From: Agrobacterium vitis
Lineage (GTDB): Bacteria > Pseudomonadota > Alphaproteobacteria > Rhizobiales > Rhizobiaceae
Direction: 5' to 3'
Assembly: GCF_013337045.2 (NCBI RefSeq)
Contig: NZ_CP118260.1
Location: 496,001 to 560,000 of the forward strand
DNA: 64,000 nt
Position 1 is the first letter of the stretch; each line of letters begins with the position of its first letter. This document shows positions 1 through 53,067 of this stretch, in pieces. The notes beneath the pieces were generated by a model. The model had not been told where the DNA came from. It saw nothing but the letters and a program-made list of their open reading frames with translations, and did not search any database. The position numbers and the translations under genes are program-made.

Positions 1-57
1 CTGGTGCTGCTGTGACGACTGTTCCTGCATCGAAAATAGCATAGGAAAAATAAGGAC

Positions 58-1470
58 ATGCGTGCAACGCTCAAGATTGCCGAACCACCCGTCGTTTCGC
101 GTTCGGAAGACGAGTTGAGAGAACTCGAGAACCTCTATTGTTCTCACGGTGATACCGTCCACTATACGGATAAGCCGAAATTCTTCGAAGGCTGCGAAGG
201 CTCCTTTGTCTACGACGCCAGCCAGACGCCATTTCTCGACCTGCAAATGTGGTATTCCGCCGTCAATTTCGGCTATCGCAACGAGCGGCTGAACAATGCG
301 GCCCATCGGCAGCTCGACCAGCTTCCGCAGGTGGCATCCCAATATCTGCACCGCGAGAAAGTCGAGCTTGCCGCGCTGATTGCCCGCGATGCCGAGCAGA
401 AGTTTGGCCATAAGGGCCGCGTCCATTTCAATGTCGGCGGCTCGCAGGCTGTCGAGGATTCGCTGAAGTTGGTGCGCAATTTCACCGGTGGCAAAAGCCT
501 GATGTTTGCCTTTGAGGGTGGCTATCATGGCCGCACGCTCGGCGCGAGTGCGATCACCTCAAGCTATCGTTATCGGCGCCGCTACGGCCATTTCAGCGAC
601 CGCGCCCAGTTTATCGAGTTTCCCTATCACTTCCGCGGCCCCAAGGGCATGTCGAAGGAAGAATATGGTGAGGTCTGCGTCCAGAAATTCGCTCGCCTGT
701 TCGAAAGCGAATATAACGGCGTCTGGGACCCCAAAGCCGGTAAATCCGAATATGCCGCTTTCTATGTCGAGCCGATCCAGGGCACGGGCGGCTATGTCAT
801 TCCGCCAATGAATTTCTTCACCGGTTTGAAGAAAGTGCTTGACGATCACGGCATCCTAATGGTTGTCGATGAGATCCAGATGGGCGTCTACCGCACCGGC
901 AAGCTGTGGTCCATCGAGCATTTTGGCGTATCACCTGATGTTCTGGTGTTCGGCAAGGCCATTACCAATGGTCTCAATCCGCTCTCCGGCATCTGGGCGC
1001 GCGAGGAGATGATCAATCCGACGATCTTCCCCCCCGGCTCGACCCATTCGACCTTCGCCAGCAATCCGATGGGGACCGCTGTTGCACTGGAAACCATGAA
1101 AATGGTCGGCGAGGGTGATTTTGGTGCCAGCGTCATGGAAAAAGGCGCCCGCTTCCTCGATGGCCTGAAGGTTCTCGAAAAACGGCATGCCATCGTCGGT
1201 GATGTCGATGGTCTCGGCCTCGCCCTGCGGATGGAAATCTGCAAGGAAGATGGGTTTACCCCTGACAAGGCAACGCTCGACTGGATGTCGGACGAAGGCA
1301 TGAAGGGTGATATGGTTGTCGATGGCAAGACCTATGGTCTGGTGCTTGATGTCGGCGGCTACCATAAGAACGTCATCACGCTGGCTCCCAACCTGATGAT
1401 CAGCAACAGCGAAATCGATCTGGCGCTCACCCTGCTTGATCAGCTGCTGACCCGCGCTGCACGGAGATAG
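58..1470 (+). CDS. Class-III PLP-dependent aminotransferase
   Basis: 470 residues, the usual length for class-III (ornithine/GABA/diaminobutyrate type) aminotransferases. The fold markers are visible in order: the substrate-entry motif WYSAVNFGY near residue 65, the PLP-phosphate region GGSQAVEDS near 128, FEGGYHGRT near 153, the PLP-ring Asp271 in VVDEIQMG, and the Schiff-base Lys300 in VFGKAITNG. It should move an amino group between an omega-amine or amino acid and a 2-oxo acid in the cytoplasm; the substrate cannot be read from sequence. It is the first complete gene of a tightly packed seven-gene set, and the next gene starts 4 bases after its stop. The ribosome site is probably AGGA at 43-46; an AAGGA ends one base before the ATG and is too close. 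Bases 1-15 read in frame as a possible 3' end of an upstream gene (stop TGA 13-15), so the cluster may begin outside the window. Confidence 0.9.
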   Translation: MRATLKIAEPPVVSRSEDELRELENLYCSHGDTVHYTDKPKFFEGCEGSFVYDASQTPFLDLQMWYSAVNFGYRNERLNNAAHRQLDQLPQVASQYLHREKVELAALIARDAEQKFGHKGRVHFNVGGSQAVEDSLKLVRNFTGGKSLMFAFEGGYHGRTLGASAITSSYRYRRRYGHFSDRAQFIEFPYHFRGPKGMSKEEYGEVCVQKFARLFESEYNGVWDPKAGKSEYAAFYVEPIQGTGGYVIPPMNFFTGLKKVLDDHGILMVVDEIQMGVYRTGKLWSIEHFGVSPDVLVFGKAITNGLNPLSGIWAREEMINPTIFPPGSTHSTFASNPMGTAVALETMKMVGEGDFGASVMEKGARFLDGLKVLEKRHAIVGDVDGLGLALRMEICKEDGFTPDKATLDWMSDEGMKGDMVVDGKTYGLVLDVGGYHKNVITLAPNLMISNSEIDLALTLLDQLLTRAARR

Positions 1471-1474
1471 AGCC

Positions 1475-2428
1475 GTGCAACTCCTGCTTCTTCATCTCGA
1501 CGACGCGCTGGAGTTGCAGCCTGAATTCATGCGCTCTTGCAAAATGGCTGGCGCGCATGAACTCAACGAACAGCAAAGCGGCAGGGCGGTGCGTCTCTGG
1601 GGTCGGCAAGCCGCGCTCGATACGCTCTGGCGGAAGATCAGGCAGGCGGGACGGCAGGGGTCTGCCGAACCGCGCCTCTGCTTCATGGGGTCGGGCGATT
1701 TTCACCATGTCACATCACTGCTGATCGATCAGGCCCTGGAAAGCCGCAGCGAGCGGGTTACCGTCATTCATATCGACAATCATCCAGACTGGGTGCATTT
1801 CGACGGTGGCATGCATTGCGGCTCCTGGGTGAACCGCACCCTTGCCAATCCGCAGGTCGATAAAGTCATCACCATCGGCGTCTGTAGCAATGATCTTGAG
1901 ACGCCAGAGCGCAAGGGCGCAAATCTCGACCTGCTCGCCAGTGGTCGGCTGGAGCTTTATCCGTACATGCATCCGCCAAGCCGGGTGAAGGCCAGTTACG
2001 GTTCCGGGCAATCCTACAGGCAGCATGCCCGCGATCTCTATTGGCAAACCATCGCCGAGATCGGCGAGATGAATTTTATCGACCGATTGCTGGCCAGCAT
2101 TCAGACCGACTGCGTCTACATCACTCTGGACAAGGACGTTCTGGTTCAAGGCGATGCAGTAACCAATTGGGACCAGGGGCAAATGCAGATGCCCTATGTC
2201 CTGTCGATCATCAGTGCGATCGGTGAGCGTCATCGGATCATCGGCGCCGATGTGACGGGGGATTATTCCCGTCCTGACTATAGCGGCACTCTCTGGACCC
2301 GGATGTTGAAAAAGGGTGAGATCCTCATCGATCAACCCCGCCATACATGTCCCAGTCCGCAAATCTGCACCATCAACAGTTCCGCAAACCTCGCGCTGCT
2401 GGATGTCTTCGGGGAGCACATGCGATGA
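1475..2428 (+). CDS. Arginase/ureohydrolase-fold protein with divergent metal motifs
   Basis: 317 residues, typical of the arginase/agmatinase/formimidoylglutamase superfamily, which hydrolyses guanidino or formimino groups with a two-Mn centre. The three metal motifs are present but altered: GSGDFHH (near residue 70) sits where GGDHS is expected, IDNHPDW (near 105) replaces DAHxD, and TLDKDVL (near 215) replaces SxDxDxxDP. Several carboxylate and His ligands survive, so it may still bind metal, but the substrate is probably not simple arginine. The start is a GTG with GGAG 8 bases upstream (1463-1466), 4 bases after the aminotransferase stop. Its stop overlaps the next start (ATGA). In this operon it could process or remove a guanidino/amidino group on the amine made by the aminotransferase; that role is inference. 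Confidence 0.75.
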   Translation: MQLLLLHLDDALELQPEFMRSCKMAGAHELNEQQSGRAVRLWGRQAALDTLWRKIRQAGRQGSAEPRLCFMGSGDFHHVTSLLIDQALESRSERVTVIHIDNHPDWVHFDGGMHCGSWVNRTLANPQVDKVITIGVCSNDLETPERKGANLDLLASGRLELYPYMHPPSRVKASYGSGQSYRQHARDLYWQTIAEIGEMNFIDRLLASIQTDCVYITLDKDVLVQGDAVTNWDQGQMQMPYVLSIISAIGERHRIIGADVTGDYSRPDYSGTLWTRMLKKGEILIDQPRHTCPSPQICTINSSANLALLDVFGEHMR

Positions 2429-2778
2429 AGCAAGGGCTCGACCTGTCAATGCTGGCGCTGATCCTGTTTTGTATCCTGACGGAGACAGGCCGCGAAATCT
2501 GCTTCAAAAAAGGCGCAGGTGAGGGGGATGCCAGACATATGGTCCTGCGGCCTGTCGTCTGGGCCGGGATCTGCTTCTGGCTCATCGAACTCCTGGCCTG
2601 GAGCCGGGTGCTTGCCAGTGTCTCGCTGTCCATCGCCTTTCCGATCATGGCGATGAGCTATGCCACCATCACGATTGCCGGTGCGGTGATCTTCAAGGAA
2701 TCCATCAACCTTCGCCATGCCGTCGGGGTCGCGCTTGTGACCGCCGGTGTGGTCTGTGTCGGAGCAACAGGACTATGA
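2425..2778 (+). CDS. EmrE/SMR-like four-helix membrane protein (first of two)
   Basis: 117 residues with four hydrophobic helices, the size and pattern of small multidrug resistance proteins and of the ArnE/ArnF lipid-flippase subunits. Helix 1 keeps an acidic residue in LTETGREICFKKG, where EmrE has its essential Glu14. The chosen ATG overlaps the stop of the arginase-like gene (ATGA at 2425-2428) and has GGGGAG about 8 bases upstream; a longer in-frame reading from 2347 lies wholly inside the preceding gene. SMR proteins work as dimers, and a second, different SMR gene closes the same operon, so a heterodimer is likely. The role may be export or flipping of the pathway product (inference). 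Confidence 0.8.
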   Translation: MKQGLDLSMLALILFCILTETGREICFKKGAGEGDARHMVLRPVVWAGICFWLIELLAWSRVLASVSLSIAFPIMAMSYATITIAGAVIFKESINLRHAVGVALVTAGVVCVGATGL

Positions 2779-3656
2779 AACTCTTTGCCTATTCAAAATG
2801 GGATAGCGTGTCTGTCGCAGCAGCATTGCTGCATCTGGCCTTCAACATCTATCTGATCGCCGGGTTCGAGAGCCGACCGTTGTGGCTCTCCTTCGTGCTT
2901 GCCTGCATCTATGCGCTGTCAATTTCCTGGAACATCAACAGCATTTCTCATAACTTCATTCACACGCCCTATTTCAAGCCGCGCTGGATGAATTATGCCT
3001 TCAGCCTGCTGGAATCGATCACCATCGGCTTTTCCCAGACCTATTATCACTGGGTCCATATGCGCCATCATTCCGGCAATAGCGACCGCCCGGATGAGAG
3101 CGGCAAGACCGTCGATTTGCTGTCGATCTACAAGCATGGCAAGAATGGCGAGCCGGAAAATGTGTTTTCCTACACGTTTCTGAGCTTCTTCCGGGACGAT
3201 CTGGGCGAAATCCATCGGGCCATCGCGGCAAAGCGGCCATTTGAAGCCAAGTGGGGCCGGATCGAACTGATCGCCTTCATCGTCGTCGCGCTGGCGGCCC
3301 TGGCCTATGACTGGAAGGCGACGCTATTCCTCGTGCCGTTCTATTATCTCGGCAATTGCCTGTCGTCTCTCAATGGTTACTACGAGCATCTGCATGGCGA
3401 TCCAGACGAGCCGATTGCCTGGGGCGTCAGCAGCTACAAGAGCTTCTACAATTGGCTGTGGTTCGGCAACGGCTATCACGCCGAACACCATTACCGGCCC
3501 AAAACCCATTGGACGCAATTGCCGCTGCTGCATGACCGGATCAAGGATGAACAGGAAAAAGCTGGCACCCATGTGATCAGCACCTGCCACGCGCTCGGCT
3601 TCATTGCCAAGGAAAATCTGGCCAAAGAGACCTTGTCGGGGGAGGGGACCCGATGA
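2775..3656 (+). CDS. Membrane fatty-acid desaturase family protein
   Basis: 293 residues, with paired transmembrane hairpins and the three histidine boxes of di-iron membrane desaturases/hydroxylases: HNFIH near residue 56, HMRHH near 95, and HAEHH near 237 followed by RPKTHW. Such enzymes use O2 and electrons to desaturate or hydroxylate an acyl chain, at the lipid, ACP or CoA level. The ATG overlaps the SMR stop (ATGA), and its own stop overlaps the next start, so translation is coupled on both sides. In the operon it suggests that the product contains an acyl or other hydrocarbon chain. Membrane hydroxylases of small molecules share these boxes, so the reaction type (desaturation or hydroxylation) is not settled. 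Confidence 0.85.
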   Translation: MKLFAYSKWDSVSVAAALLHLAFNIYLIAGFESRPLWLSFVLACIYALSISWNINSISHNFIHTPYFKPRWMNYAFSLLESITIGFSQTYYHWVHMRHHSGNSDRPDESGKTVDLLSIYKHGKNGEPENVFSYTFLSFFRDDLGEIHRAIAAKRPFEAKWGRIELIAFIVVALAALAYDWKATLFLVPFYYLGNCLSSLNGYYEHLHGDPDEPIAWGVSSYKSFYNWLWFGNGYHAEHHYRPKTHWTQLPLLHDRIKDEQEKAGTHVISTCHALGFIAKENLAKETLSGEGTR

Positions 3657-4468
3657 GCACTGATGCGCTCTCGTTTTTTCAGGAAGGCAGCAATGGCAGT
3701 GGCATCCTACTTGTCCACGGTCTGACAGGGGCACCTGCGGAAATGCGGCTGGTCGCCCGGCAATTGCACCGGCGCGGATATTCGGTCTATGCCCCGCTTT
3801 TGGCAGGCCATGGAAAGGACGAAGCAGCCTTGCGCAAGACGCGCTGGCAGGATTGGCTTGAGAGCGTCGAGGAAGCCGGACAGGTTCTGGCATCACGGGT
3901 CGATGCGGCCTTTGCCGCAGGCATTTGCGCCGGGGGAAAGCTGGCGCTGATGGCGGCGGATCGCCAGCCATTGACGCTGCGGGCGGCGGCCATCTATTCG
4001 CCCTGCTTCCATTATGATGGCTGGGACATTCCCCGCCATTACAATTTCATGGCGCGCAATATCCGCTGGCTGGCGAAGATTCCTTTCCTGGACCGGCTGA
4101 GGTTTCACGAAACCCGCTCGCTCGGCATCAAGGACGACCGGCTGCGCAACAAGATTGCCGCCATGAATGGCGACGGCGTGCTGGAGAGCTTTCCTGGCAG
4201 GGGATTGGTGGAAATGGACAAGCTCGGGCGGGTGCTGAAAGCCCGGCTGCCATCCATGGAGACACCAACGCTGATCGTTCATTCGCTTGAGGATGATGTC
4301 AGCAGCCCAAGCCATGCCCAATATATCTCGTCCCATCTCGGCGGGCCGCGAGAACTGCATTGGCTGCGGGACAGCTATCACATGATCCATATGGACCGAC
4401 AACATCGGCACGTCGCCGATCTGACAGCGGATTTTTTCGAGGCTCATTATGTACCGGACCGAGCATAA
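3653..4468 (+). CDS. Alpha/beta hydrolase (carboxylesterase-like) with a Cys nucleophile
   Basis: 271 residues. The N-terminus has the oxyanion motif LLVHGLTGAP near residue 22, as in Est30-type carboxylesterases and monoacylglycerol lipases. The nucleophile elbow reads GICAGG (near residue 88), so Cys replaces the usual Ser, as in dienelactone hydrolases. The expected acid is in HSLEDDVSS (near 206) and the base His in DSYHMIH (near 245). Cys in this position can support acyl transfer or thioester/lactone chemistry as well as hydrolysis. There is no signal peptide, so it should be cytoplasmic. The start overlaps the desaturase stop (ATGA); the next gene begins 2 bases after its stop. It probably releases or transfers an acyl group in the cluster's pathway (inference). 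Confidence 0.8.
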   Translation: MSTDALSFFQEGSNGSGILLVHGLTGAPAEMRLVARQLHRRGYSVYAPLLAGHGKDEAALRKTRWQDWLESVEEAGQVLASRVDAAFAAGICAGGKLALMAADRQPLTLRAAAIYSPCFHYDGWDIPRHYNFMARNIRWLAKIPFLDRLRFHETRSLGIKDDRLRNKIAAMNGDGVLESFPGRGLVEMDKLGRVLKARLPSMETPTLIVHSLEDDVSSPSHAQYISSHLGGPRELHWLRDSYHMIHMDRQHRHVADLTADFFEAHYVPDRA

Positions 4469-4469
4469 C

Positions 4470-5678
4470 ATGTCCGAAAACAGAGCGGTGAAATCTGCGG
4501 CCCCAGACGATGTCATGCAGAAGCGTGTCATGCTTGGTGTGGTGAGCAGTTTGGATGCCCGCATTGCAACCTCGATTGCCGATATTGATCGTGATGAGTG
4601 GGACCAGTGTTTTCCCGGCGAACCGGAGGCCTACGACTATCTGCTGACCGTGGAAACCGCGGGGATATCAGGCTTTGAATGGTGCTATGCCACGGTCTAT
4701 GAAGGCGGCTACCTTGTTGCGGCCATGCCAGCCTTCATCACACGCTATGCCTTGGACACCACGCTTGAGGCGGGCGGCGTCCGTGACGCGATCGCTAGGT
4801 TGCGCCGCATCTTTCCAAGATTCCTGACCTTGCCACTGGCCTGCCTGGGCTCGCCTTGCACGGAGACCGGCAATCTCGGTTTTCACCCATCGGTCAGGCC
4901 GGAACGTCATGAAATGCTGTTTGAGGCCATGCTGAGCAGTTTTGAGGATTATGCCAGGACACGAAAATGCGTGCTGGGTGCGCTGAAGGATATTCCGCAG
5001 CCGTTGGATGCCGGGATTGACCGCGTGATCAAGGACCATGGCTATGCGCCGCTGGGCGGCATGCCGACCGCCTGGCTCACCATCGATTTCAACGATATGG
5101 ACAGTTATTTTGCTCGACTGTCATCATCGACACGCAAGGACATGCGCCGCAAATTGCGGGCGCGCGAAAAGGTCAGGGTCGAATACCACACGCAATTCGG
5201 TGACTATCTGCCGCGGATCATGCAGCTTTATAACGAAACGCGCACGCGTAGCGAATGGCAGTTCGAAGAGCTGACACCGGCCTATTTCGAAGGCATCCTG
5301 AAGACTATGCCCGGCCGGTCTTTCTGCACCCTGTATTTTGTTGGCGACGAATTGCTGGCGGCCAACCTGATGGTTCATAACGATCACACCCTGATCGACA
5401 AATTTTTCTGCATGGATGAAAAGGCGGGTCGCCCCTACAATCTCTATTATCTCAGCTGGTTCGAGAATATCGGCTATTGCCTGAAGAACGGCTTGACGCG
5501 CTATCAGAGCGGCCAGGCCTATTATAGCAACAAGGTGCGGCTGGGCAGCAGGCTAACGCCGAATGAAATGTATTTCCGTCATCGTAATCCTGTCGTTCAA
5601 CGTCTGTTGCGCCTGGTTGCGCCCTATTTCGCCGCAGATGAAGCGAGCGCAGTTCAACCGAGCGAGGGCGACGCATGA
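4470..5678 (+). CDS. GNAT/FemAB-like acyltransferase (BioF2/Acetyltransf_6 type)
   Basis: About 402 residues in a two-lobed FemAB/GNAT-like arrangement. The C-terminal half carries the recognisable core: SSSTRKDMRRKLR near residue 228, YNETRTRSEWQFEEL, then a strand-rich section with LLAANLMVHN and YYSNKVRLGSR typical of the Acetyltransf_6 family. These enzymes transfer an acyl or aminoacyl group to an amine. An in-frame ATG at 4449 lies inside the hydrolase gene; the ATG at 4470 (MSENRAV) is preferred because it follows the hydrolase stop. Its stop overlaps the last gene of the operon (ATGA at 5675). It probably joins an acyl group to the amine formed by the aminotransferase; this is inferred from context only. 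Confidence 0.75.
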   Translation: MSENRAVKSAAPDDVMQKRVMLGVVSSLDARIATSIADIDRDEWDQCFPGEPEAYDYLLTVETAGISGFEWCYATVYEGGYLVAAMPAFITRYALDTTLEAGGVRDAIARLRRIFPRFLTLPLACLGSPCTETGNLGFHPSVRPERHEMLFEAMLSSFEDYARTRKCVLGALKDIPQPLDAGIDRVIKDHGYAPLGGMPTAWLTIDFNDMDSYFARLSSSTRKDMRRKLRAREKVRVEYHTQFGDYLPRIMQLYNETRTRSEWQFEELTPAYFEGILKTMPGRSFCTLYFVGDELLAANLMVHNDHTLIDKFFCMDEKAGRPYNLYYLSWFENIGYCLKNGLTRYQSGQAYYSNKVRLGSRLTPNEMYFRHRNPVVQRLLRLVAPYFAADEASAVQPSEGDA

Positions 5679-6043
5679 AACTGCTTCGCCTGTCATGGCT
5701 GGCCGTGCCGGTACTCAATACGGCTCAGCAGATGTTTTTGAAACTTGGCGCAGATCAGGCCGATACCGCGCATGGATCGGCGTTTTTCGAACATGTCTTC
5801 CTGTCACACTGGTTTCTAGCCGCTGTCATCGCGGAAATTGTCTGTTTTATCGTCTGGATGTCGGTGCTGGCCGATCTGCCGCTCAGCAAGGCATTTCCAT
5901 TATCCGCTGTCAGCTATGTGCTGATCATGGCAATGGCCTGGTTCATGTTTGACGAGCCGGTCAGGCTTTTGACGCTGATTGGCACGGCGACAATCCTGGC
6001 TGGCGCCTGGTGCATTGCGACGGCGTCAAAGTCTGGGGCCTGA
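5675..6043 (+). CDS. EmrE/SMR-like four-helix membrane protein (second of two)
   Basis: 122 residues, four predicted helices, EamA/SMR type. Helix 1 reads VPVLNTAQQMFLKLGAD: the position of EmrE's proton-binding Glu is Asn/Gln here, as in ArnE/ArnF-type flippase subunits, whereas the first SMR gene of the operon keeps an acidic residue. The pair therefore looks like an asymmetric heterodimer. The ATG overlaps the acyltransferase stop (ATGA), so it is translationally coupled and ends the operon; the convergent mipA-like gene stops 15 bases further on. A charged drug-exporter role is less likely than lipid or lipid-linked substrate movement, given the missing Glu (inference). Confidence 0.8.
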   Translation: MKLLRLSWLAVPVLNTAQQMFLKLGADQADTAHGSAFFEHVFLSHWFLAAVIAEIVCFIVWMSVLADLPLSKAFPLSAVSYVLIMAMAWFMFDEPVRLLTLIGTATILAGAWCIATASKSGA

Positions 6044-6058: not shown

Positions 6059-6892
6059 TCAGAATGAAATATCGAAGGATTTATTGAAGGCAATTCCAAC
6101 GACGTTCTGGTTTTTCGTCCCGAGCTCAGAGGAAACAGGAGAATCGGCGGCATCGCCCACCAGCCGCTCGAAGCGATCATAGAGTTGCACCGACATGTCG
6201 GGCGATATCGTATAGGTGGCCGAGACGGTAAAGCCGACGGATTTGATCCCGGCGCTCGCATCGAAAGCATTGATGCGGCCATTGCGGCTGGCCTCGGCAG
6301 CGGAGACGCCGAAATATTTGTTCATATAGGATGTGTCGCCAAAAGTGGCCCTCGGTCCTGCGGACAGCAGCCATTTTTCGGAAAGCGGTTGAAACCAGTC
6401 TGAGCCGACATCAACCACCAATCCACTGCCATTTGACAGCGCCTGACGGATTTCCGAGCGGACGCGCCAGACATCGGGCTTGATCCAGTATTGGACGAAT
6501 ACACCCGCATCGATATCGAATTCGACGTTTTTCAGCCCGTCGAGATTGGTCGATTTGGAGGAGCGGCTGTCACGAAAGCCAACGACCGGCCCCACTTCAA
6601 ACCCATGCCCACTGAACACCGTATAATCCAGATTGTCATCAGGCGCTGAATTTTCCTCAGCCTCTCCGAACCGCCGGATATCGAAGGAGGGAATGACCCC
6701 GAACGTATATTGCTTGGAACCGGGATAGCTGGGCGCCAGTTCGACAGCCCCTCCGAGCGTGACCGTCCAGCGACTGTCCGTATTATCGGCACTCGCGTCG
6801 GCGGCATGGCTGCTACAGGCAGAAAACAGCAGGGATGACAGGCAGCCCGCCGCGATCGCACCTCTAGGATTTATCACTCGATACAAAACCAT
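6059..6892 (-). CDS. MipA/OmpV-family outer-membrane protein
   Basis: 277 residues with an N-terminal signal peptide (hydrophobic segment to about residue 30, ending SSHAADA). The rest alternates short polar and aromatic strands, including GGAVELAPSYPGSK and VGPVVGFRDSR, as in the MipA/OmpV beta-barrel family. The last residue is Phe (KSFDISF), the usual barrel-assembly signal. In E. coli MipA bridges murein hydrolase MltA and PBP1B; other family members act as porins or are induced by stress or antibiotics. It is transcribed alone, convergent with the seven-gene operon. GGACGG lies just upstream of the ATG. The 211 bases between it and bcsB contain no other gene that I can support. Confidence 0.85.
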   Translation of the reverse strand: MVLYRVINPRGAIAAGCLSSLLFSACSSHAADASADNTDSRWTVTLGGAVELAPSYPGSKQYTFGVIPSFDIRRFGEAEENSAPDDNLDYTVFSGHGFEVGPVVGFRDSRSSKSTNLDGLKNVEFDIDAGVFVQYWIKPDVWRVRSEIRQALSNGSGLVVDVGSDWFQPLSEKWLLSAGPRATFGDTSYMNKYFGVSAAEASRNGRINAFDASAGIKSVGFTVSATYTISPDMSVQLYDRFERLVGDAADSPVSSELGTKNQNVVGIAFNKSFDISF

Positions 6893-7103: not shown

Positions 7104-9458
7104 TTAATGTCTGTCTGGCCCATGGCCGCGCCCCAGCAGCGCCATCAACGCATTGGTGGCAAGTCCAAGCAGGATCGCGCACAGGACGAGCCCGCCTGCA
7201 TAGATCACAAAATTGCCTGAGAGCCAGTTTGCCGCGACCAGTCGCATATTGCTGATGCTCAAGGGCTGCATCGACAACAGGCTGACGTTGCTTGGCTCAT
7301 TGACGACGATCTGCTGTTTCCTGGCATCATAAACGCTGACACGGCCAGAGATCGCGGTCCAATTGCGAAGATCGGCGATATCAATGGCGCCGGTTTGCAA
7401 CAATGCAAGATCAGGGGCGCTGAATGTCGTCAGGATGGCACCGTCGGCATCGACGGATTGAGACAGAAATGCACTGGATGCCTGCGGCAATGTATAGGAG
7501 GCCTCGGCGCTCGGCCAAAGACTGACGGTCGCCAGGTTGAGATCGAAGGTTTCTTTCATCCAGGTATCGACGCTGGAAAAAAATTCCATCACCGTGCCGG
7601 AATCAATTTTGTCGCGCCAGGATTTGAGCTTTACGTCAGTGCTGAGATCGCCATCTCCGGCGCCCTTGGTGTTCAGCTGCACATTGGCAAGTGCCTGGGG
7701 TGGAAGGTCCGGTGCCGCTCCGATGAAAATCGCATTGCGACCGGCAAAACGCGGGGGCGATGACGCCATTTCGAGAGCAAGGGTTTGGCGGGCCGATGCG
7801 GCAAATTTGCCGAGCACGGTTGCGGCTGCGGCCAGCGTCACATCGTCATTCCGGCCGAGAACAACCATTGTCGGGGTCTTTGCCGCCGCAAAGGGAAAGC
7901 CGAGAGCCGCTGTTGCGGCGAGGTCGGGGGCCTGGGTCAGATGCGCGATCGGCGGCATGACGAATTGCGAAGAGCCGAACAAGGCAAACCGCGCCGTTTT
8001 GTCCGCTGTCTCACCAGGTGCGCAGACGCTGTCCTCCTGGGTCATCATCACGGCTTCCAGCCCGATGACATTCACGCCCGGATGAAAATGGCGCAGGGTA
8101 ACGCGGATCGGATAGTGCCGGAGAACCGCGCCTCCCTTGGACGTGATCGGAACGGTGGTCGCCAGATGACCGTTGACCGATACCACGATCTGGCTGCCCG
8201 GCAAGACCTTGCTCGAATAGGCAGCGTCCAGCAATATGGTCGCGGTCCCATAATGGTTGGCGTAGAAATCGGCGGGCATGCCGACCGTGAAATCTGTGGA
8301 AAAACGCCGACCTGAAAATTCCTGGTCGGGAAGACCGAGTGCGGCAAAGGACAGCGTGCCAGCTTTGTCGAGAATAGGCGTATCGATGCCGCGCCAGGCC
8401 GAGGTTTTCAACATCCGCCGCTCGCCGTCTTGCGCGAACTGGACAAAGTTATCGGCAATCGCTTTGATGTCGCGCCAATCCGGGCCGCTGAAGGCGAGCA
8501 CCGACACGCCTGGCCGGGCAGGAAGCGCCATGAAGCCAGCCATCGTGCCGTTCAGCTTTCTGGTGTCAGCGTTTACGGCATTGTTGATGCCGATCAGGCC
8601 CGCCATTTGCGATGTGGTGGCTGCCACGACCACAAGCTCCCCGGGGGCCGGTCGTGCTGGCATGGCTTTCGTGAAGCTGAAGGAGCCATTGGCCACGCCG
8701 CTCAGCAGTGAAAGGCCTTGGGCCAACTGGAGCAAAGCGGGTGTGGCGGATGGCTTTTCGAAATCCGGTGAAACAATGGTGAAATGGCTGCGGCCTTTTT
8801 CATCGACCCCAAGCGCACGCACATCGTCGAGACGTTTCATGCCGTTGGCATTAGGGTCTGCAAATGTCAGATAGGTTTTTGCCGCATCGAGCTGCGTCCA
8901 CAATTCATAGGTGGATTGGATGGTGCAGTCGGTGCGGTGCCGTTGCTCCGCGGCAAACCCTATCCGGTTGAAGCCCGGAACAAGAACGCCTCGCGGCACG
9001 GAAATCGTGTTTTGCTGCGCAGACTGGCCGCCTCTGATCGGCAGGTTTAGAACCGGCGTGTCATTGATGGTGATAAGAAGGTTAGAGGCTTCCGGCGCAA
9101 CCACGAGCGCGTTGCTATAGCTCAGCACCAGCTTTGCATCGGCTGAGGCTTGTTCCGGTGTCAGGTAAATCGACATCGCCTGCCGGGCCAGTTCGCCTTG
9201 CAGCTTGAGAGCCGGCGTCGTCAGCAGGTAACGGCGTGACAGGCTCTCGCTTTGCTGTTGTGCCGGGCGGTTGGAAAGGGGAATGCCAGGGATCGGCGTA
9301 GTGGGGACGGGGACAGGCGCCTTGGTCGCGGGCAGGCCGGGTATCGGCGCGCCCGGCGTTGTATTGCTTTCGGGGCTCATGTCGAAAGGCGCCATCTGGG
9401 CAAGTGCTGACCCAGCGCCTGCCACAAGCATCAAAATCAGGGCAAAAGCTGTTTTCAC
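7104..9458 (-). CDS. bcsB: Cellulose synthase periplasmic subunit BcsB
   Basis: About 784 residues. The protein has a Sec signal peptide, a proline-rich stretch (residues 30-70, PIPGLPATK and repeats), the paired carbohydrate-binding/flavodoxin-like modules of BcsB, and a C-terminal membrane anchor (NFVIYAGGLVLCAILLG) that packs against BcsA. It guides the nascent glucan across the periplasm. The start chosen is GTG at 9458: GGAGGG lies 7 bases upstream, it overlaps the bcsA stop as GTGA, and it directly precedes the signal peptide. A longer in-frame reading to 9620 would put 54 non-signal residues before it, inside bcsA. Unlike many rhizobial cellulose operons, no endoglucanase gene (bcsZ) follows; the next gene is an unrelated outer-membrane protein. 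Confidence 0.92.
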   Translation of the reverse strand: MKTAFALILMLVAGAGSALAQMAPFDMSPESNTTPGAPIPGLPATKAPVPVPTTPIPGIPLSNRPAQQQSESLSRRYLLTTPALKLQGELARQAMSIYLTPEQASADAKLVLSYSNALVVAPEASNLLITINDTPVLNLPIRGGQSAQQNTISVPRGVLVPGFNRIGFAAEQRHRTDCTIQSTYELWTQLDAAKTYLTFADPNANGMKRLDDVRALGVDEKGRSHFTIVSPDFEKPSATPALLQLAQGLSLLSGVANGSFSFTKAMPARPAPGELVVVAATTSQMAGLIGINNAVNADTRKLNGTMAGFMALPARPGVSVLAFSGPDWRDIKAIADNFVQFAQDGERRMLKTSAWRGIDTPILDKAGTLSFAALGLPDQEFSGRRFSTDFTVGMPADFYANHYGTATILLDAAYSSKVLPGSQIVVSVNGHLATTVPITSKGGAVLRHYPIRVTLRHFHPGVNVIGLEAVMMTQEDSVCAPGETADKTARFALFGSSQFVMPPIAHLTQAPDLAATAALGFPFAAAKTPTMVVLGRNDDVTLAAAATVLGKFAASARQTLALEMASSPPRFAGRNAIFIGAAPDLPPQALANVQLNTKGAGDGDLSTDVKLKSWRDKIDSGTVMEFFSSVDTWMKETFDLNLATVSLWPSAEASYTLPQASSAFLSQSVDADGAILTTFSAPDLALLQTGAIDIADLRNWTAISGRVSVYDARKQQIVVNEPSNVSLLSMQPLSISNMRLVAANWLSGNFVIYAGGLVLCAILLGLATNALMALLGRGHGPDRH

Positions 9459-11644
9459 TGTTCGCCCTCCTGCTTTGCATCGGTTTTGGCTTTCGAAGAA
9501 AGCAGCAGAAGCAGATAATGCAAGCCACGCAGTGTCTGCGTCAGGGACAGGCGCAGGAACATCCAGGCTCCACCCAAAAGGCCTGGATTGTGACGACGCG
9601 ACTGTTGAAACAGGCTCCACTGCTGGGCATTGGCAAAGATCAGATCGGCGATGAATTCATGGTGGCGCACGGTTTCCGGCAGATAGCGGCAGCCGATTGA
9701 GACGATATCGCCATTGAACTGGAAATGGCGGATATTGACAGGCAGTTCGGCCCATCCCGTTGTGCCATGCGGTTGAAAGGTTACCGCGCCCAAGATGTCC
9801 CGTTTGAAGATTTCGCGGTCGCGGGTGAAAATTTGCAGGCTGGCACCGTTGACCGACACATCGTCGATCATTGCCGGATAGGTTTTTCCACCCACGGAAA
9901 ACTCGCAGCGCCGGCTGACCTGGACACGACGCGACGACTGTCGCTCTCCCCGCTCCGAGACGACGCCCAGTGCGCATCCGGCCATGATCAGATTGACCAG
10001 GTTCCAGCCACCGACCACCAGTGTCACGTCAAACCGATAGGGATCGCTGTAGAGCCTGTAGACAGTCACAGCAAAGGCAAGCAGCAGGATAAAGAAGATC
10101 AGGAAAAACGGCCGGCTGATTTCCGAAAGACGGCTTTCCGTCACGCTTTCATCCTTGGCGGTGACCTTGAAAGTCGGTCGCCGTGGGTCCCACATCACCG
10201 ACAGGATCGCTGGCAGCAGATGTATTGATTGCACATATTCGTAAAGCTCCGAAATCCATGGCCAGCGGAAGGAACCATAGAGGTAGTTCTGAACCATCAG
10301 GTTCACGAGCATATAGGACAGCGTATAGGCCATGAACTCGCCACCCGAGCCCATGAAAATCTGTAGATCGAAAAACAGATAGAACAGCGGCGCCATCAGG
10401 AAGATCGCCCGGGGAAAGGGAAACAGCCAGAACATCGTTGATGACATGTAGCAGAGCCGCTGCGGCAAGGTCAGGCCGCGCTTGAGTGGCGGAAAACGGA
10501 ACCGCATGATCTGCATCATGCCCTGAGCCCAGCGGCTGCGCTGGCCGATAAAGCTGGCAAAGGTGGCCGGTTGCAGCCCGGCGATCAGTGGCATGTCGAC
10601 GAAAACACTGTTCCAGCCGCGTGAATGCAGCTCAAGCGCGGTTTCGCAATCCTCGGTAATGGAAAGGCCGCTGAAGCCCTTGGTTTCAAGCAGCGCTTCG
10701 CGGCGCAGCACGGCGGCTGATCCGCAGAAAAATGCCGCGTTCCATTTGTCGAGGCCGCGCTGGATAATGCCGTAGAACATTTCGTTCTCGCTCGGCATCT
10801 TGTTGAACGTGTTGAGGTTGCGCTCGACCGGGTCCGGGTTGATGAAGAAATGCGGCGTCTGGACCAGGAAAAGACGCGGGTCATCCCCGAAATAGCCGAC
10901 GGTTTCCTTCAGAAAGCTGCGGGCCGGAGCGTGGTCGGCGTCGAAGACGGCGATCAGTTCTCCGCTGGAATGGTCAAGACCATTGTTGAGATTGCCGGCC
11001 TTCGCATGTTCGTTACGCTCGCGGGTCAGATAGCGCACGCCAAGCTGGCTACAGAGCGCCTGAAGCGCATGATAACGTTGCTCGGCGAATTTTGCTGCCA
11101 GCAGGTCGGTCGACTGACGCTTCTGCTCTGTGGAGCCGTCGTCCAGCAGCCAGACGGTGAATTTTTCAGTCGGATAATCGAGATTGCGGGCCGCAGCCAG
11201 CGTATTGGCCAGCAAGGCTTCGTCTTCGTTATAGCTTGGTACGAAGATATCGACGATTGGCAGTTCTTCAGCGGCAAGGGTGCGAAAAGGCTTGCGCGGC
11301 GGTAGCGGCATGGACACCACGAACAGGCTGAGAAACAGCATCAGGACGCTGTACATCTCGGCCAGATAGACAAGCAGGCCGGGGATGAAATTTTCAAGCT
11401 GGTTGACCGGCGGCAAGGTACTGCTGGTGCGCCAATAGACATAGCGCAGAACAATGGCTGTCGAGAGCGACAGAAAAACAATGCGGCCGCGTCCTTCGAT
11501 CCGCATCATTCTCATCACCGAAACGATGATGAGAATGATGAATGTCGTCACCAGCTGTGTCCGGGTGTCGATGGGCAGAAATGTCAGGGCCAGCATCGCC
11601 GCCGCGCAGATCAGCCAGAGCAGGAAGCGGACCAAAAACACCAT
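9455..11644 (-). CDS. bcsA: Cellulose synthase catalytic subunit BcsA (UDP-forming)
   Basis: 729 residues. N-terminal helices are followed by a family-2 glycosyltransferase domain with the signature residues LLDDGSTE, VFDADHAP, TEDCETA and QRSRW (the QxxRW motif), then further membrane helices. A C-terminal PilZ domain follows, with an Arg-rich loop (SSRRVQVSRR) and DVSVNGAS matching D/NxSxxG. It polymerises UDP-glucose into beta-1,4-glucan and secretes it, and the PilZ domain makes it c-di-GMP dependent. It is translationally coupled to bcsB and lies 101 bases after bcsN. A GAGGA ribosome site is about 8 bases before the ATG. In rhizobia and agrobacteria cellulose supports root attachment and biofilm. 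Confidence 0.95.
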   Translation of the reverse strand: MVFLVRFLLWLICAAAMLALTFLPIDTRTQLVTTFIILIIVSVMRMMRIEGRGRIVFLSLSTAIVLRYVYWRTSSTLPPVNQLENFIPGLLVYLAEMYSVLMLFLSLFVVSMPLPPRKPFRTLAAEELPIVDIFVPSYNEDEALLANTLAAARNLDYPTEKFTVWLLDDGSTEQKRQSTDLLAAKFAEQRYHALQALCSQLGVRYLTRERNEHAKAGNLNNGLDHSSGELIAVFDADHAPARSFLKETVGYFGDDPRLFLVQTPHFFINPDPVERNLNTFNKMPSENEMFYGIIQRGLDKWNAAFFCGSAAVLRREALLETKGFSGLSITEDCETALELHSRGWNSVFVDMPLIAGLQPATFASFIGQRSRWAQGMMQIMRFRFPPLKRGLTLPQRLCYMSSTMFWLFPFPRAIFLMAPLFYLFFDLQIFMGSGGEFMAYTLSYMLVNLMVQNYLYGSFRWPWISELYEYVQSIHLLPAILSVMWDPRRPTFKVTAKDESVTESRLSEISRPFFLIFFILLLAFAVTVYRLYSDPYRFDVTLVVGGWNLVNLIMAGCALGVVSERGERQSSRRVQVSRRCEFSVGGKTYPAMIDDVSVNGASLQIFTRDREIFKRDILGAVTFQPHGTTGWAELPVNIRHFQFNGDIVSIGCRYLPETVRHHEFIADLIFANAQQWSLFQQSRRHNPGLLGGAWMFLRLSLTQTLRGLHYLLLLLSSKAKTDAKQEGEQ

Positions 11645-47473: not shown

Positions 47474-47550
47474 CTAGTGGTCCTGGAGATTCCGACATTT
47501 GCTCTCGAGGGTGCTGCAAACGGAGGCAAATGTCGGAATCGGACCACTAG
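47474..47550. repeat. Palindromic element B with CTAGTGG ends
   Basis: Outer arms CTAGTGGTCC (47474-47483) and GGACCACTAG (47541-47550); inner 15-bp arms 47488-47502 and 47526-47540 (GATTCCGACATTTGC / its complement). The loop carries CTCGAGGGTGC, the reverse complement of the loop core of element A. It overlaps the last codon and stop of glgB on the minus strand (47547-47550) and may serve as its 3' end structure. Confidence 0.7.
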
Positions 47551-49754
47551 GCCACCCATTTCAGATAGAGTGTCGCCAGCGGTGGCAGGGCGAGGTTTAT
47601 CGAAAATTCCCTGCCATTGGCCGGGATCTGCTCCGCTGAAACGTCACCCTTGCCTTGCCCCGATCCTCCAAATTCACTGGCATCGCTGTTGAGGATTTCC
47701 GTCCAGCGACCCTGCCTCGGCACGCCAACGCGGTAGTCATGGCGCAACATCGGGGTGAAATTTGAGATCGCCAGAATGCAGCTCTCATGGTTTTCGTCAT
47801 AGCGCAGCATGGCGATGACCGAGTTTTCGGCATCGTCGGCAATCGCCCATTCAAAACCGGCAGGGTCGAGATCACTGAATTGCAGAGCTTTTTCCTGCTG
47901 ATACAGCCCGTTCAGCTTGGCGACCAAAGTCTGGATACCAGCATGACCCGGTCGGTCCATCAAATCCCAGGAGATCGATTGATCATGGTTCCACTCGATG
48001 TCCTGGCCGATCTCGCAGCCCATAAACACCAGTTTCTTGCCGGGATGCGCCCACATGAACCCATAATAGGCCCGCAGATTCGCTAGCTTCTGCCAGTGAT
48101 CGCCGGGCATTTTACCCAGCAACGAGCCTTTGCCATGCACAACTTCATCATGGGAAAGCGGCAGCACAAACCGCTCGGAATATTGATAGACCATGCTGAA
48201 GGTCATCGTGCCGTGATGATATTTGCGATAGACCGGATCTTCTTCAATATAGGACAGGCTGTCATGCATCCAACCCATGTTCCATTTGAAATCGAAGCCC
48301 AGGCCGCCGTCTTCCGGGGATTTGGTCACGCCCGGCCAGGCGGTTGATTCCTCGGCAATCATTAGTGCATGCGGGCAGCGGCTGTGAACAACGCTGTTCA
48401 GATGCTTGAAGAACTCGACGGATTCGAGGTTTTCCCGGCCGCCGAATTGGTTGGGAATCCATTCGCCGTCATTGCGGCTATAGTCGCGGTAGAGCATCGA
48501 GGCGACGGCATCGACCCGCAGCCCGTCGATATGGAAATGCTCGAGCCACTCGAAGGCGCTGGCAATCAGAAAGCCCTTCACCTCCTTGCGACCGAGATTG
48601 TAGATCAGCGTGTTCCAATCCCGATGAAAGCCTTCGCGCGGATCTTCATGCTCATAAAGCGCACTACCATCAAAGCGCGCCAGACCCCAGACATCAGTCG
48701 GAAAATGGGCAGGCACCCAATCGAGAAGGACGCCGACACCGCTGGCGTGGCAACGGTCGATGAAATAGGCCAAATCCTCTGGAGTGCCGTAGCGTCCCGT
48801 AGGTGAAAACAGTCCGAGCGGCTGATAACCCCAGGAGCCGCCAAACGGATGTTCGGTGATCGGCAGCAATTCGATATGGGTGAAATTCATGGATTTGACG
48901 TAAGGCACCAGCCTCTGGCTCAGTTCCACCCAGTCGAGCCAGCGATTGCCATCTTCGGCGATCCGCAGCCACGAGCCGAGATGCACTTCATAGATCGAGA
49001 TCGGCTCGCGCGCGGCAGAATCGGCGTTCTGCCGTGTCATCCAGGCCTGGTCCGTCCAGGCAAACGGCGTGTTTGACGCGACGATGGAGGCCGTTCCCGG
49101 TGCCGCTTCGCTGGCCTTGGCGACCGGGTCGGCCTTTTGCGGCAGCACATTGCCTTGCGCGTCGATCAATTCATATTTGTAGCGCTCGCCGGGGCTGAGA
49201 CCCGGAACGAACAATTCCCAGATACCACCGGCTTGGCGCAGGCGCATCGGGTTGCGTCGCCCATCCCAGGAATTGAAGTCACCCACCACCGAGACGCGCT
49301 GTGCGGTTGGCGCCCAGACGGCAAAGCCAACCCCTGATACCCCATCCATCTCTCTCGGGTTGGCGCCCAATGTGCGGGCGAGATCATAATGGGTGGCCTC
49401 GGCGATCAGATGCAGGTCCATATCGCCCAGCAGCAGGCCGAAGGCATAGGGGTCTTCGGCAATCTGCACCGCATCAGGCCATTCGATCCGAAACCGGTAG
49501 TGTGAGGAGGAGCGAAGCTCTCCCGCAAACAAGCCGCCCGGATGCACCAGATTCAGCCGGCCCACCGGGGCACTGCTGTTTCTGTCGAGCATTTCCACGC
49601 CGAGCGCACCCGGAAAGATTGCCCGGACCACCGTTTCCCCATCCGCCCGATGTGGTCCAAGGATGGAAAAGGGATCGCCGTGCCTGCCGTCGATCAGGGC
49701 TTGAATCGCCTGGGCATCGATGCCGGATAGCAAGTCGCTCGTGGCAATCGTCAT
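47547..49754 (-). CDS. glgB: 1,4-alpha-glucan branching enzyme GlgB
   Basis: 735 residues, standard length. An N-terminal CBM48-type module (about 10-220, [12 protein letters not shown] and [14 protein letters not shown]) precedes the GH13 barrel, with the nucleophile Asp in [17 protein letters not shown], the acid/base Glu in [10 protein letters not shown] and [13 protein letters not shown]. It cuts alpha-1,4 chains and re-attaches them as alpha-1,6 branches. The ATG overlaps the upstream TreS-kinase stop (ATGA at 49754-49751) with GGAGA 7 bases before it. It is the last gene of the glgE-treS/mak-glgB operon. Confidence 0.95.
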
Positions 49755-52700
49755 AGGGAAGTCTCCGTCAGCCGTTCGGCAATGTCGGCAAAGCCAGCGA
49801 GTGGAATGGCGATCCAGCCTGGCCGGTTGCTGGCTTCATAGCCGATTTCATAGGCGGCCTTTTCCAGCAGGAACAGGTCGAGAATCCTGCGGCGCTGTTC
49901 GGGGTCCATCGCCAGTGTGGGCTCTCCGTCCACTGCCGCGAAATAGCTTTCGAGGAAGTGCGTCTCGGCCTTCTTGCGAAAGGCTTCGATCAGCGCGGCT
50001 CTTGCTGCACTGTCGCCCTGGACGACGATCTCGCGGCCCGTATCGGCGGAAGCAGCAAGATAGCTCAGCGAGCGGATCAGTCCTGCCACGTCGCGCAGCG
50101 GATTGGTCTTTGCCCGCCGTTCGGCGAGCGGGCGGGCCGGTTCACCTTCGAAATCGATGATATAGACATCGTCTTCGGCAATCAGGATCTGGCCGAGATG
50201 GAAATCGCCGTGGTTGCGGATCATCAGCGTGTCCTTGGCAACGCTGGCCAGCGTACCGACCGCGCTCAAGATCTGCTCCCGGCGGTCCGCCAGCATGGTG
50301 CTGACCCTGTTGGTTTCAGTGTCGAGACCATCACTGTCGCTGCCACGAGCAATCGCAGACACTCTGTCCAGGCAGTCGGCAACGCGGGCCATGACCGAGC
50401 GCGCCCAAACGGACACGTCCTCATCACGCATTGCGACTGGCGCGAACGCCGGGTCGTCTGTTGGCTTGGCCAGTGCCACATGCAGTTCACCAAGCCGTTT
50501 GCCGATCACAGCGGCTTGATTGAACAGCGGGTTGAACCGCTCTTGCTCGGCATCGTCATCCTGACCGGCAACCATGCTCTGTTCGAGCGTCTGTCTGAGC
50601 GTGTCGAGCATCCAGGTCCAGGCATCGCCCTGGTTGCGGATGGCGCCCTGGATGATGATCAATGTCGAGCGCTCATCTTCAGGTGAAACCCTGACGACCT
50701 CTCCCAGCAGCGGGGCCGTGTTGGCATAGCCAAGCCGCGTCAGGTGGCGGGTCATTTCCACTTCCGGGTGGATGCCCTGATGGATGTGACGAATGAGTTT
50801 GATCATCGCCATGTCGCCGATGATCAACGAGCTGTTGGATTGTTCAGCCGAGAGCCATTTGACCTGCATGTCTTCAGACAGGTCCATGCCGTCGAGCTGC
50901 TCGGTGCCGATGAAATCGATGGAACCGCTCTTGCTGGAAATGCTGGAGCGTTCGCACAACGCCTTGATGACGCCACGCGCCATGCTTTGCATGGCAAAGC
51001 CATCCGTCAGGAAGCCAACCCGGCGTCCTTTACGCACTCTTGCAAAGGCCAGCTGCTGGGCAAGCGCATGGGGTGTCTCATCGTCCCAGGCGATGGCGAA
51101 CGGTAGAAAATACCGTTCAACACGATCTTCCAGCTCGGTTTCCAACTCACCCAGCAGCAGGTCATTGCCGAAGGGCATTGGAATGGTCGAGATCAGCGAG
51201 GCGCGTTTCACCCTTTCGCCCTTGGAGGCAAACCAGCGGCGCTTGGCAAGATAGGAAGGCAGGATTTCACGCGAAATCGTGTCTTGAATATTAGGCTCGT
51301 CCAGCAATTGGGCAAGTTCGCGCCGCATGACGATGGTGACGAAATCCGGCAATTGCTCCGGTGGCTCGGTGCGCCAGACCGGCCCATCCGCATCCGTCTC
51401 GCCTGAGAGCTTGAACCAGAAGAAACCATAGGGGGGCAGGGTCAGGAGGTAGGTCAGCTGGCCGATCGGGGGAAAGGCCGACATGCCGGTCAGCTCAATG
51501 GGAATACGCTTTTCGAATTCGGCCAGATCCAGCTCGACCGCCTGCGGCAGACGCGACAGATTGGCGACGCACAGCAGCACTTCGCCCTCATATTCGCGCA
51601 GATAGGCGATGATCTTGCGGTTGGCCGGTGACAGGAACCGCAATGTACCACGTCCGAACGCCGTAAATTTGCGCCGAAGCGCCAGCATGTGACGGCTCCA
51701 GTTCAGCAGCGAATGGGCGTCAGCCGACTGTGCCTCGACATTGACCGCTTCATAGCCATAGAGAGGGTCCATCAGCGGCGGCAGCACCAAGCGGGCCGGG
51801 TCGGCGCGGGAAAATCCGCCATTGCGATCCGGCGACCATTGCATCGGTGTGCGCACCCCGTCACGGTCGCCGAGATAGATGTTGTCGCCCATGCCGATCT
51901 CGTCGCCGTAATAGATCACCGGCGTGCCGCGCATTGACAGAAGCAGCGCGTTCATCAGCTCGATGCGGCGGCGGTCACGCTCCATCAGCGGTGCGAGGCG
52001 CCTGCGGATGCCGAGATTGATCCGCGCCCGACGGTCAGCGGCATAGGTGTTCCACAAATAGTCCCGCTCGGCGTCGGTGACCATTTCCAACGTCAGTTCG
52101 TCGTGATTGCGCAGGAAAATCGCCCATTGGCAATTATCGGGAATCTCCGGTGTCTGGCGCATGATGTCGGTGATCGGAAAACGATCCTCCTTGGCAATCG
52201 CCATATACATGCGCGGCATCAGCGGGAAGTGGAAGGCCATATGGCATTCGTCACCCTCGCCGAAATATTCCTGGGTATCTTCAGGCCATTGATTGGCCTC
52301 GGCGAGCAGCATCTTACCAGGATGGCCTTCGTCCATTGCCGCCCGGATCTTCTTCAGGATCGCATGGGTTTCCGGCAGGTTTTCGTTATTGGTGCCTTCG
52401 CGCTCAACCAGATAGGGAATGGCGTCGAGCCGGAAGGCATCGATGCCGGTATCGAGCCAGAACCGCATGACCGTGATCAACTCGTCCAGCACAGCCGGAT
52501 TGTCGAAGTTGAGGTCCGGCTGGTGGGAGTAGAAGCGGTGCCAGTAATAGGCGCCAGCCACCGGGTCCCAGGTCCAGTTGGACTTTTCCGTATCGAGAAA
52601 GATGATCCGGGTTTCCGGAAACTTCTGGTCGGTCTCCGACCAGACATAGAAATCCCGTTCCGGCGAACCAGCGGGCGCATTGCGGGCTCGCTCAAACCAG

Positions 52701-53056: not shown

Positions 53057-53067
53057 CGGAAATCTCC

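Follow-up and report, generated by a model that had tools for sequence, protein, structure and literature searches.

What do the genes crowded at the left end of a 64,000-nucleotide stretch of Agrobacterium vitis DNA make together? The stretch, called the window here (G000:C2:496001-560000, contig NZ_CP118260.1, in a 6.08-Mb genome of five contigs), carries seven genes on one strand, from a class III aminotransferase gene, here AT3, to the second of two SMR transporter genes (SMR1 and SMR2). An earlier note on the window had read them as a translationally coupled operon serving one pathway, with an aminolipid, a lipid-linked decoration or a small acylated metabolite as the product. Coordinates, strand and packing are as described there: four junctions are ATGA overlaps, the remaining two are gaps of 4 and 1 bases, and a Pfam profile search backs the family labels of all seven products. 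The operon does not, however, start at base 58, since an eighth gene, for a HAD-IB phosphatase, precedes AT3 and begins to the left of base 1. We give about an even chance to the reading that these eight genes are dedicated to building an amine-bearing acyl lipid for the envelope and flipping it across the membrane. This is the most economical reading of a set in which amine-making, acyl-chain, transferase, hydrolase and flippase-like genes lie beside a PmrA/QseB-like switch. The features are given below in window positions, with their best profile matches and, where counted, their presence among the 86 related loci described further on.

1..44, + strand: last 44 bases of the eighth gene, which codes for an MtnX-like HAD-IB phosphatase and spans G000:C2:495340-496044 (L009:15340-16044) in full; TIGR01489 100.5 bits, cut-off 81.55; 84 of 86 loci.
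58..1470, + strand: AT3, class III pyridoxal phosphate-dependent aminotransferase; PF00202, E 7.4e-72.
1475..2428, + strand: protein of the ureohydrolase (arginase/agmatinase) fold, GTG start; PF00491, E 2.3e-9, metal-ligand motifs intact.
2425..2778, + strand: SMR1, SMR/EamA half-transporter 1, ArnE-like; EamA-type SMR profile 24.7 bits, just under the cut-off of 28.2; best NCBIfam match ArnE.
2775..3656, + strand: membrane di-iron desaturase, an optional tailoring gene; PF00487, E 4.2e-32; 53 of 86 loci.
3653..4468, + strand: alpha/beta-hydrolase with Cys at the nucleophile position (GxCxG); PF12146 (Hydrolase_4), E 1.9e-18; 84 of 86 loci.
4470..5678, + strand: FemAB-like tandem-GNAT transferase; PF04339 (FemAB_like/Acetyltransf_6), E 2.6e-14.
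5675..6043, + strand: SMR2, SMR/EamA half-transporter 2, ArnF-like; PF00892 33.1 bits, cut-off 28.2; best NCBIfam match ArnF.
6059..6892, - strand: MipA/OmpV outer-membrane protein, a convergent neighbour outside the operon, its end 15 bases away from that of SMR2; PF06629, E 9.9e-46; MipA match in 57 of 86 loci.

The advice of the earlier note to extend the sequence leftwards for missing partners proved fruitful. In the extended locus (L009) the phosphatase gene ends 13 bases before AT3, and upstream of it lie genes for a response regulator and a histidine kinase; the unit is thus an operon of at least eight genes adjoining its own two-component system. A PDB sequence search matched the HAD protein to an MtnX structure (E 1.6e-16). 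The best NCBIfam matches of the response regulator are QseB (203.7 bits, cut-off 345) and PmrA (201.8, cut-off 330), and those of the kinase are QseC (180.2, cut-off 475), a CzcS-type kinase and PmrB (148, cut-off 314), none of these curated cut-offs being reached; by these scores the pair falls in the right superfamily for PmrAB and QseBC without being a certified member of either.

A scan of genome contigs with AT3 returned 578 relatives, the best 80 of which were analysed with flanks of up to 10 kb. Together with 24 loci from sampled genomes and four from plasmids they form a table of 108 AT3-ortholog loci, skewed to Rhizobiaceae by the choice of the best 80 of 578; in unannotated loci the genes were predicted with a codon-usage script written for the purpose, and BLAST served to assign orthology. 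Partner counts were made on the 86 loci with flanks no shorter than 6 kb (low side) and 6.5 kb (high side) (22 of the 108 being dropped for short flanks), and a partner was scored as present when it matched within 11 kb of AT3. The HAD and hydrolase genes were found in 84 loci each, the FemAB-like gene in 78, the SMR pair in 77 (two genes in every one of them) and the arginase-fold gene in 76; a response regulator was present in 75 and a histidine kinase in 71. Other genes are less constant, namely MipA (57), the desaturase (53) and a cyclopropane synthase (44), and rarer still are a DevC-type permease (10), a TolC-type protein (9), a DegT aminotransferase (7), and a ketoacyl-ACP synthase (KAS) and an acyl carrier protein (ACP) in three each. 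More distant genomes hold the same genes in other orders, some with KAS and ACP, a DegT-type aminotransferase (one locus verified as PF01041) or an ABC-TolC exporter; the Xanthomonas sacchari cluster has KAS and ACP genes, and both it and the Agrobacterium salinitolerans locus carry annotated TolC, ABC and HlyD/adaptor genes. AT3 is the most conserved gene of the set, and the grouping is beyond chance because the set recurs, also reordered, in several families of Pseudomonadota.

The set is nevertheless patchily distributed. In an even sample of 398 Pseudomonadota genomes, the window's own included, AT3 was found at E<=1e-120 in 25, belonging to 13 of 213 genera and nine family codes; the same-family genomes yielded 3 of 17, again counting the window's own, and AT3 loci occurred on 34 of 72,556 plasmid records. 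Among the best 80 relatives, three Agrobacterium (Allorhizobium) vitis strains have an AT3 protein 99-100% identical to the window's; the matches of the contig and plasmid scans also include R. tropici, R. leguminosarum and R. phaseoli. The arginase-fold protein matched in 12 of 299 sampled genomes, the 11 strong matches all lying in AT3-positive genomes and the twelfth, a weak one (E about 1e-3), outside that set. MipA and DevC-type matches never coincide in the 86 loci (MipA alone 57, DevC alone 10, neither 19); this exclusion is weak evidence because, when this pair, the desaturase and cyclopropane synthase, and two other pairs were placed on the AT3 tree, there were few independent events and no sign test was significant. 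The ten loci with a DevC-type permease and no MipA match are L025, L037, L048, L068, L077, L083, L142, L143, L155 and L158, and several of them also have adaptor, ABC ATPase and TolC genes.

The scattering of homologues that the earlier note would have taken as a refutation was put to the test: core partners lie nearby in 76-84 of the 86 loci, though some genomes divide the set between two places, and in some the AT3 locus consists of HAD, AT3 and hydrolase only. When the FemAB-like alignment was run against the 25 AT3-positive genomes it matched in 22, and in six of these the best match was weaker (168-193 bits) and away from the AT3 locus, where it directly adjoined an SMR pair in three (L162, L163 and L165). 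In two further loci (L147:7666-9264 and L150:2598-4049) the reading frame of the hydrolase extends into sequence like the N-terminal part of the FemAB-like protein, giving frames of 533 aa and 484 aa, the latter reaching the contig end; judged from the reading frames, a fusion of two pathway enzymes is possible. The FemAB-like genes beside SMR pairs off the locus, together with these continued frames, tie the FemAB-like, SMR and hydrolase genes to AT3 and HAD beyond their position in the operon. Looser arrangements were also seen. On a plasmid of Bartonella sp. HY406 (L156:11956-17959) the AT3, FemAB-like and arginase-fold genes adjoin MBOAT and AlgX-like genes, and no HAD, hydrolase or SMR pair is annotated in the 25-kb stretch around them. 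A remoter relative of AT3, with 54-55% identity, was met at L153:9311-11628; its neighbour looks by eye like a sulfotransferase gene, HAD and the other operon partners are missing there, and it perhaps belongs to a different pathway. The neighbours of the L152 cluster (elongation factor P, a class II tRNA synthetase-like protein and a flavin adenine dinucleotide oxidase) were scanned and judged ordinary.

The link between the operon and its sensor pair is most apparent in the promoter. A set of 68 promoter sequences was assembled from the window's genome and 67 loci in which a kinase at least 45% identical to the window's lies no more than 500 bases upstream of HAD, the region between the two being taken; the window's genome and three A. 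vitis genomes nearly identical to it account for four of the 68. In 65 of the 68, four T[CA]A[GT] cores recur as direct repeats at 11-base spacing, an array that mononucleotide shuffles produced 0 times in 200 rounds, and the three promoters without the full array (L042, L043 and L052) have one deviating repeat each. In the window's genome the array lies at G000:C2:495260-495312 (L009:15260-15312), between the two-component genes and HAD. An invariant TA at columns 50-51, 12 columns past the last TCA, may from its position be part of a -10 element. Arrays of 11-bp repeats are typical of OmpR-family binding sites, and this one is probably the operator of a regulator of the OmpR type.

A sequence-only profile trained on 36 of these sites gave 46-50 bits in five loci outside the training set, and matched at E<=1 in none of the 17 loci tested that have a different type of regulator or no recognised one. 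In L022, which its neighbours suggest may be from Pseudomonas, a sigma-54 activator takes the place of the neighbouring regulator. Run over the genome, it returned one strong site at 48.6 bits, the next best reaching 8.7; that site belonged to the training set, so that only the absence of rivals is informative, and 150 of 1,902 first-look candidates were scored, which leaves room for weaker or missed sites. Nothing matched in the window at E<=10, and there is accordingly no copy in front of MipA. With a single strong genomic site and a repeat tied to the adjacent type of regulator, the operon appears to be what its sensor pair chiefly controls, and the idea of one pathway gains from both this element and the conserved linkage. 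A relaxed PmrA-box-like pattern was considered as a sign of PmrA control and rejected: it occurs in only 4 of the 68 promoters (shuffled mean 0.57), all in A. vitis-type genomes, and proved to be part of the 11-bp array.

What the individual enzymes might do was approached through motifs and predicted folds. The Lys300 motif of AT3 is kept in 33 of 33 aligned sequences. The protein lacks the Glu/Arg pair found in ornithine, γ-aminobutyrate (GABA) and acetylornithine aminotransferases; this clue to an unusual substrate was dropped because, of six further class III proteins encoded in the genome, five are without both residues as well. Serinol phosphate as the product, by analogy with rhizobitoxine biosynthesis, and an amination of hopanoids of the HpnO type were likewise considered, and nothing supports them. 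In the arginase-fold protein, D75/H77/H78, D101-x-H103-x-D105 and D219-x-D221 are invariant in 25 of 25 sequences, and its structure model (predicted local distance difference test score, pLDDT, 93.5) gave Foldseek and VIA matches to the ureohydrolase fold. A single-sequence PDB search found nothing for it, and its family profile reached arginases and agmatinases at E about 1e-4; judged on the model, the protein belongs to the ureohydrolase superfamily by both its fold and its binuclear-metal ligand motifs.

The label of Cys-hydrolase given earlier describes the window's protein correctly and does not extend to the family, in which, of 30 aligned orthologues, 14 have Cys at the nucleophile position and 16 have Ser. 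For the FemAB-like protein a family profile search gave no sensible match, and single-sequence PDB searches with it and with the desaturase gave chance-level matches only. Its structure model (pLDDT 88.3) has FemX, Sbb17 and MprF among the best fold matches, so the predicted protein is of the FemX/MprF tandem-GNAT type, a fold that would fit an aminoacyl-tRNA, acyl-CoA or acyl-ACP donor alike. A hydropathy scan of its 402 residues found no hydrophobic stretch typical of a membrane helix. As to the SMR pair, its proposed role as a flippase draws only on distant similarity to ArnE and ArnF and on the finding that 86 of 93 loci carry one SMR gene of each kind.

Evidence for an acyl chain comes mainly from the optional genes. 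The desaturase, with its three His boxes (HNFIH, HMRHH and HAEHH) and its match to the FA_desaturase profile, is a membrane di-iron fatty acid desaturase; used as a query against the genome, it retrieved no other relative at E<=1e-3 (three candidates scored). Among the 108 loci, 45 have both desaturase and cyclopropane synthase, 16 the desaturase alone, seven the synthase alone and 40 neither; the synthase, verified in one example as PF02353 (E 1.3e-89), begins on the same strand within 400 bases after the last SMR match in 40 of the 61 desaturase loci and lies elsewhere in five. A double bond followed by cyclopropanation leads one to expect a fatty-acyl chain, and the gene pair suggests a fatty-acyl product. 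The acylated product foreseen in the earlier note is thus backed indirectly, by this pair, by the KAS and ACP genes of other loci and by the FemAB-like genes found next to SMR pairs in three genomes.

The set holds amine-making or amine-unmasking genes (AT3, the arginase-fold gene and, in some loci, DegT) next to acyl genes (the desaturase, the cyclopropane synthase and, in some loci, KAS and ACP), and a route for an envelope aminolipid can be proposed. AT3 would aminate a small keto or aldehyde precursor and the HAD phosphatase would take off a phosphate; the FemAB-like transferase would then couple the amine to a fatty-acyl (or aminoacyl) group, and the alpha/beta-hydrolase might supply, move or trim an acyl group. 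The desaturase in many rhizobia, joined in many of those by the cyclopropane synthase, would modify the acyl chain, and the ureohydrolase could turn a guanidino group into one more free amine. Together, SMR1 and SMR2 would act as one heterodimer flipping the product to the outer leaflet, with onward transport by MipA/OmpV or, in other loci, by an ABC-TolC exporter, and the QseBC/PmrAB-like system would switch the operon through the four 11-bp repeats.

Several observations weigh against this proposal. None of the eight operon proteins was recognised as a glycosyltransferase, an acyl-ACP ligase or an enzyme known from lipid-headgroup synthesis. In nine of the 86 loci no SMR gene at all was matched within 11 kb of AT3, the SMR scores are about half the ArnE and ArnF cut-offs (46.4 against 92 bits for SMR1, 52.1 against 99 for SMR2), and SMR proteins also export small cations. 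The FemAB-like alignment matched nowhere in three of the 25 AT3-positive genomes, and of the six where its match lies off the AT3 locus, three (L160, L161 and L164) had no SMR pair called alongside, the AT3 contigs of two of the six being only 4-8 kb long, so that a second copy there is possible. The link between desaturase and cyclopropane synthase is clumped by descent, with four changes of the former and six of the latter on the AT3 tree and a sign test that was not significant, and the window's own operon is without a cyclopropane synthase, four full-length ones lying elsewhere in the genome. Finally, the FemAB-like model matches best the folds of enzymes that depend on aminoacyl-tRNA, and for that reason its donor may be other than a fatty acyl group.

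This last point opens the way to a split system resembling MprF, in which the FemAB-like protein would move an aminoacyl group from tRNA to a lipid, the ureohydrolase would trim an arginyl headgroup and the SMR pair would flip the result; we hold this explanation to be quite improbable. Only slightly better placed, and still improbable, is a carrier-linked decoration by an aminosugar or aminoalcohol, analogous to PmrAB-arn, with the SMR pair flipping an undecaprenyl-phosphate-linked amine destined for lipid A or a polysaccharide. It would account for ArnE and ArnF as the best curated SMR matches, the PmrA/QseB-like regulator, the DegT-type aminotransferase of 7 of 86 loci, and the MBOAT and AlgX-like genes of the Bartonella variant, but leaves the desaturase and cyclopropane synthase unexpected, and no glycosyltransferase, polysaccharide deacetylase or ArnT-like transferase was recognised among the operon proteins.

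A more serious competitor, which we nonetheless judge unlikely, is a secreted small acylated metabolite (a signal, a siderophore-like compound or an antimicrobial) exported by the SMR pair and, in some clades, by an ABC-TolC system. The uneven occurrence (3 of 17 genomes of the family, counting the window's own) and the plasmid records (34 of 72,556) speak for it, as do the KAS and ACP genes of some loci, the DevC-type permease in 10 and TolC-type protein in 9 of 86 loci, and the TolC, ABC and HlyD/adaptor genes in X. sacchari and A. salinitolerans. Set against these are the MipA match that 57 of 86 loci have in place of an exporter, and the lack of any recognised nonribosomal peptide synthetase, large polyketide synthase, receptor or uptake gene in the operon; moreover, cyclopropane synthases act on membrane phospholipid chains. 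That the genes are neighbours with unrelated functions, or together serve the breakdown of a guanidino or amino compound, seems very improbable indeed: class III aminotransferases, arginase folds and HAD proteins are common in catabolism, but the set is kept in different gene orders across several families and has a conserved promoter element.

The envelope aminolipid can also be taken further. It is possible, and we put it forward only tentatively, that Pseudomonadota hold an unrecognised and widespread class of cationic aminolipids made by an AT3 and HAD route, joined by a FemAB-type enzyme, flipped by an SMR heterodimer, desaturated and cyclopropanated on the acyl chain in many rhizobia, and governed by a dedicated two-component switch parallel to PmrAB-arn and MprF. 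If so, a membrane lipid family and its flippase have been overlooked in plant-associated and environmental bacteria, on chromosomes and plasmids alike; a further SMR heterodimer would join ArnEF as a lipid flippase; and for one two-component system it would become possible to link the stimulus, the promoter element and the product. The optional genes (desaturase, cyclopropane synthase, KAS/ACP, DegT, and MipA or ABC-TolC) would then predict defined mass differences between strains.

Elsewhere in the window, directly beyond MipA, lie cellulose synthase genes for BcsB and a BcsA-type GT2/PilZ protein (7104-11644, - strand), and at 47547-53071 (- strand) genes for a glycogen branching enzyme and an alpha-amylase/maltokinase-cap fusion protein.

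How, then, does the locus compare with known systems? PmrAB and arnBCADTEF bring about the modification of lipid A with 4-amino-4-deoxy-L-arabinose. The locus resembles them in having a PmrA/QseB-like regulator by the operon, SMR proteins whose best matches are ArnE and ArnF, and amine-forming enzymes; it differs in adding HAD, AT3, ureohydrolase, hydrolase, FemAB-like and desaturase genes, often with a cyclopropane synthase, and ArnA, ArnC, ArnD and ArnT were not recognised among the eight operon proteins (no genome-wide search was made for them). With MprF, the lysyl/alanyl-phosphatidylglycerol synthase-flippase, it would share the logic of synthase plus flippase, and the FemAB-like model has the tandem-GNAT fold of the MprF synthase; unlike MprF, the protein has no fused membrane flippase domain, a role that would fall to the SMR pair. 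In Caulobacter sphingolipid synthesis (Spt, bCerS and CerR), as described in PMC11324152 and PMC11087976, an N-acyltransferase builds an amine-containing lipid, which is like the product and the N-acyltransferase step proposed here. No serine palmitoyltransferase is among the operon proteins, to which that search was confined. Ornithine lipids, made by OlsBA, are amide-linked amino lipids without phosphate; here, by contrast, the transferase is of the FemAB_like/Acetyltransf_6 family and no OlsA-like gene was recognised in the operon. DevBCA-TolC, the glycolipid exporter of heterocysts, has a counterpart in the DevC-type permease of 10 of 86 loci and in L158, with an FtsX-type permease, an HlyD-type adaptor and an OEP/TolC gene, all Pfam-verified; it differs in being absent from the window's operon, and no locus of the 86 has both DevC-type and MipA matches.

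A literature search for this gene set or its product, with most subscription journals outside its reach, found no description, and no exact match to a characterised cluster, which the earlier note would have taken as contrary evidence, turned up in the searches made. By its own proteins the operon is not an arn, MprF or sphingolipid locus. We regard it as a candidate case of an envelope lipid made and flipped under regulation, by a group of genes for which no described match was found, and one whose parts may, by analogy, work like parts of the arn and MprF systems.

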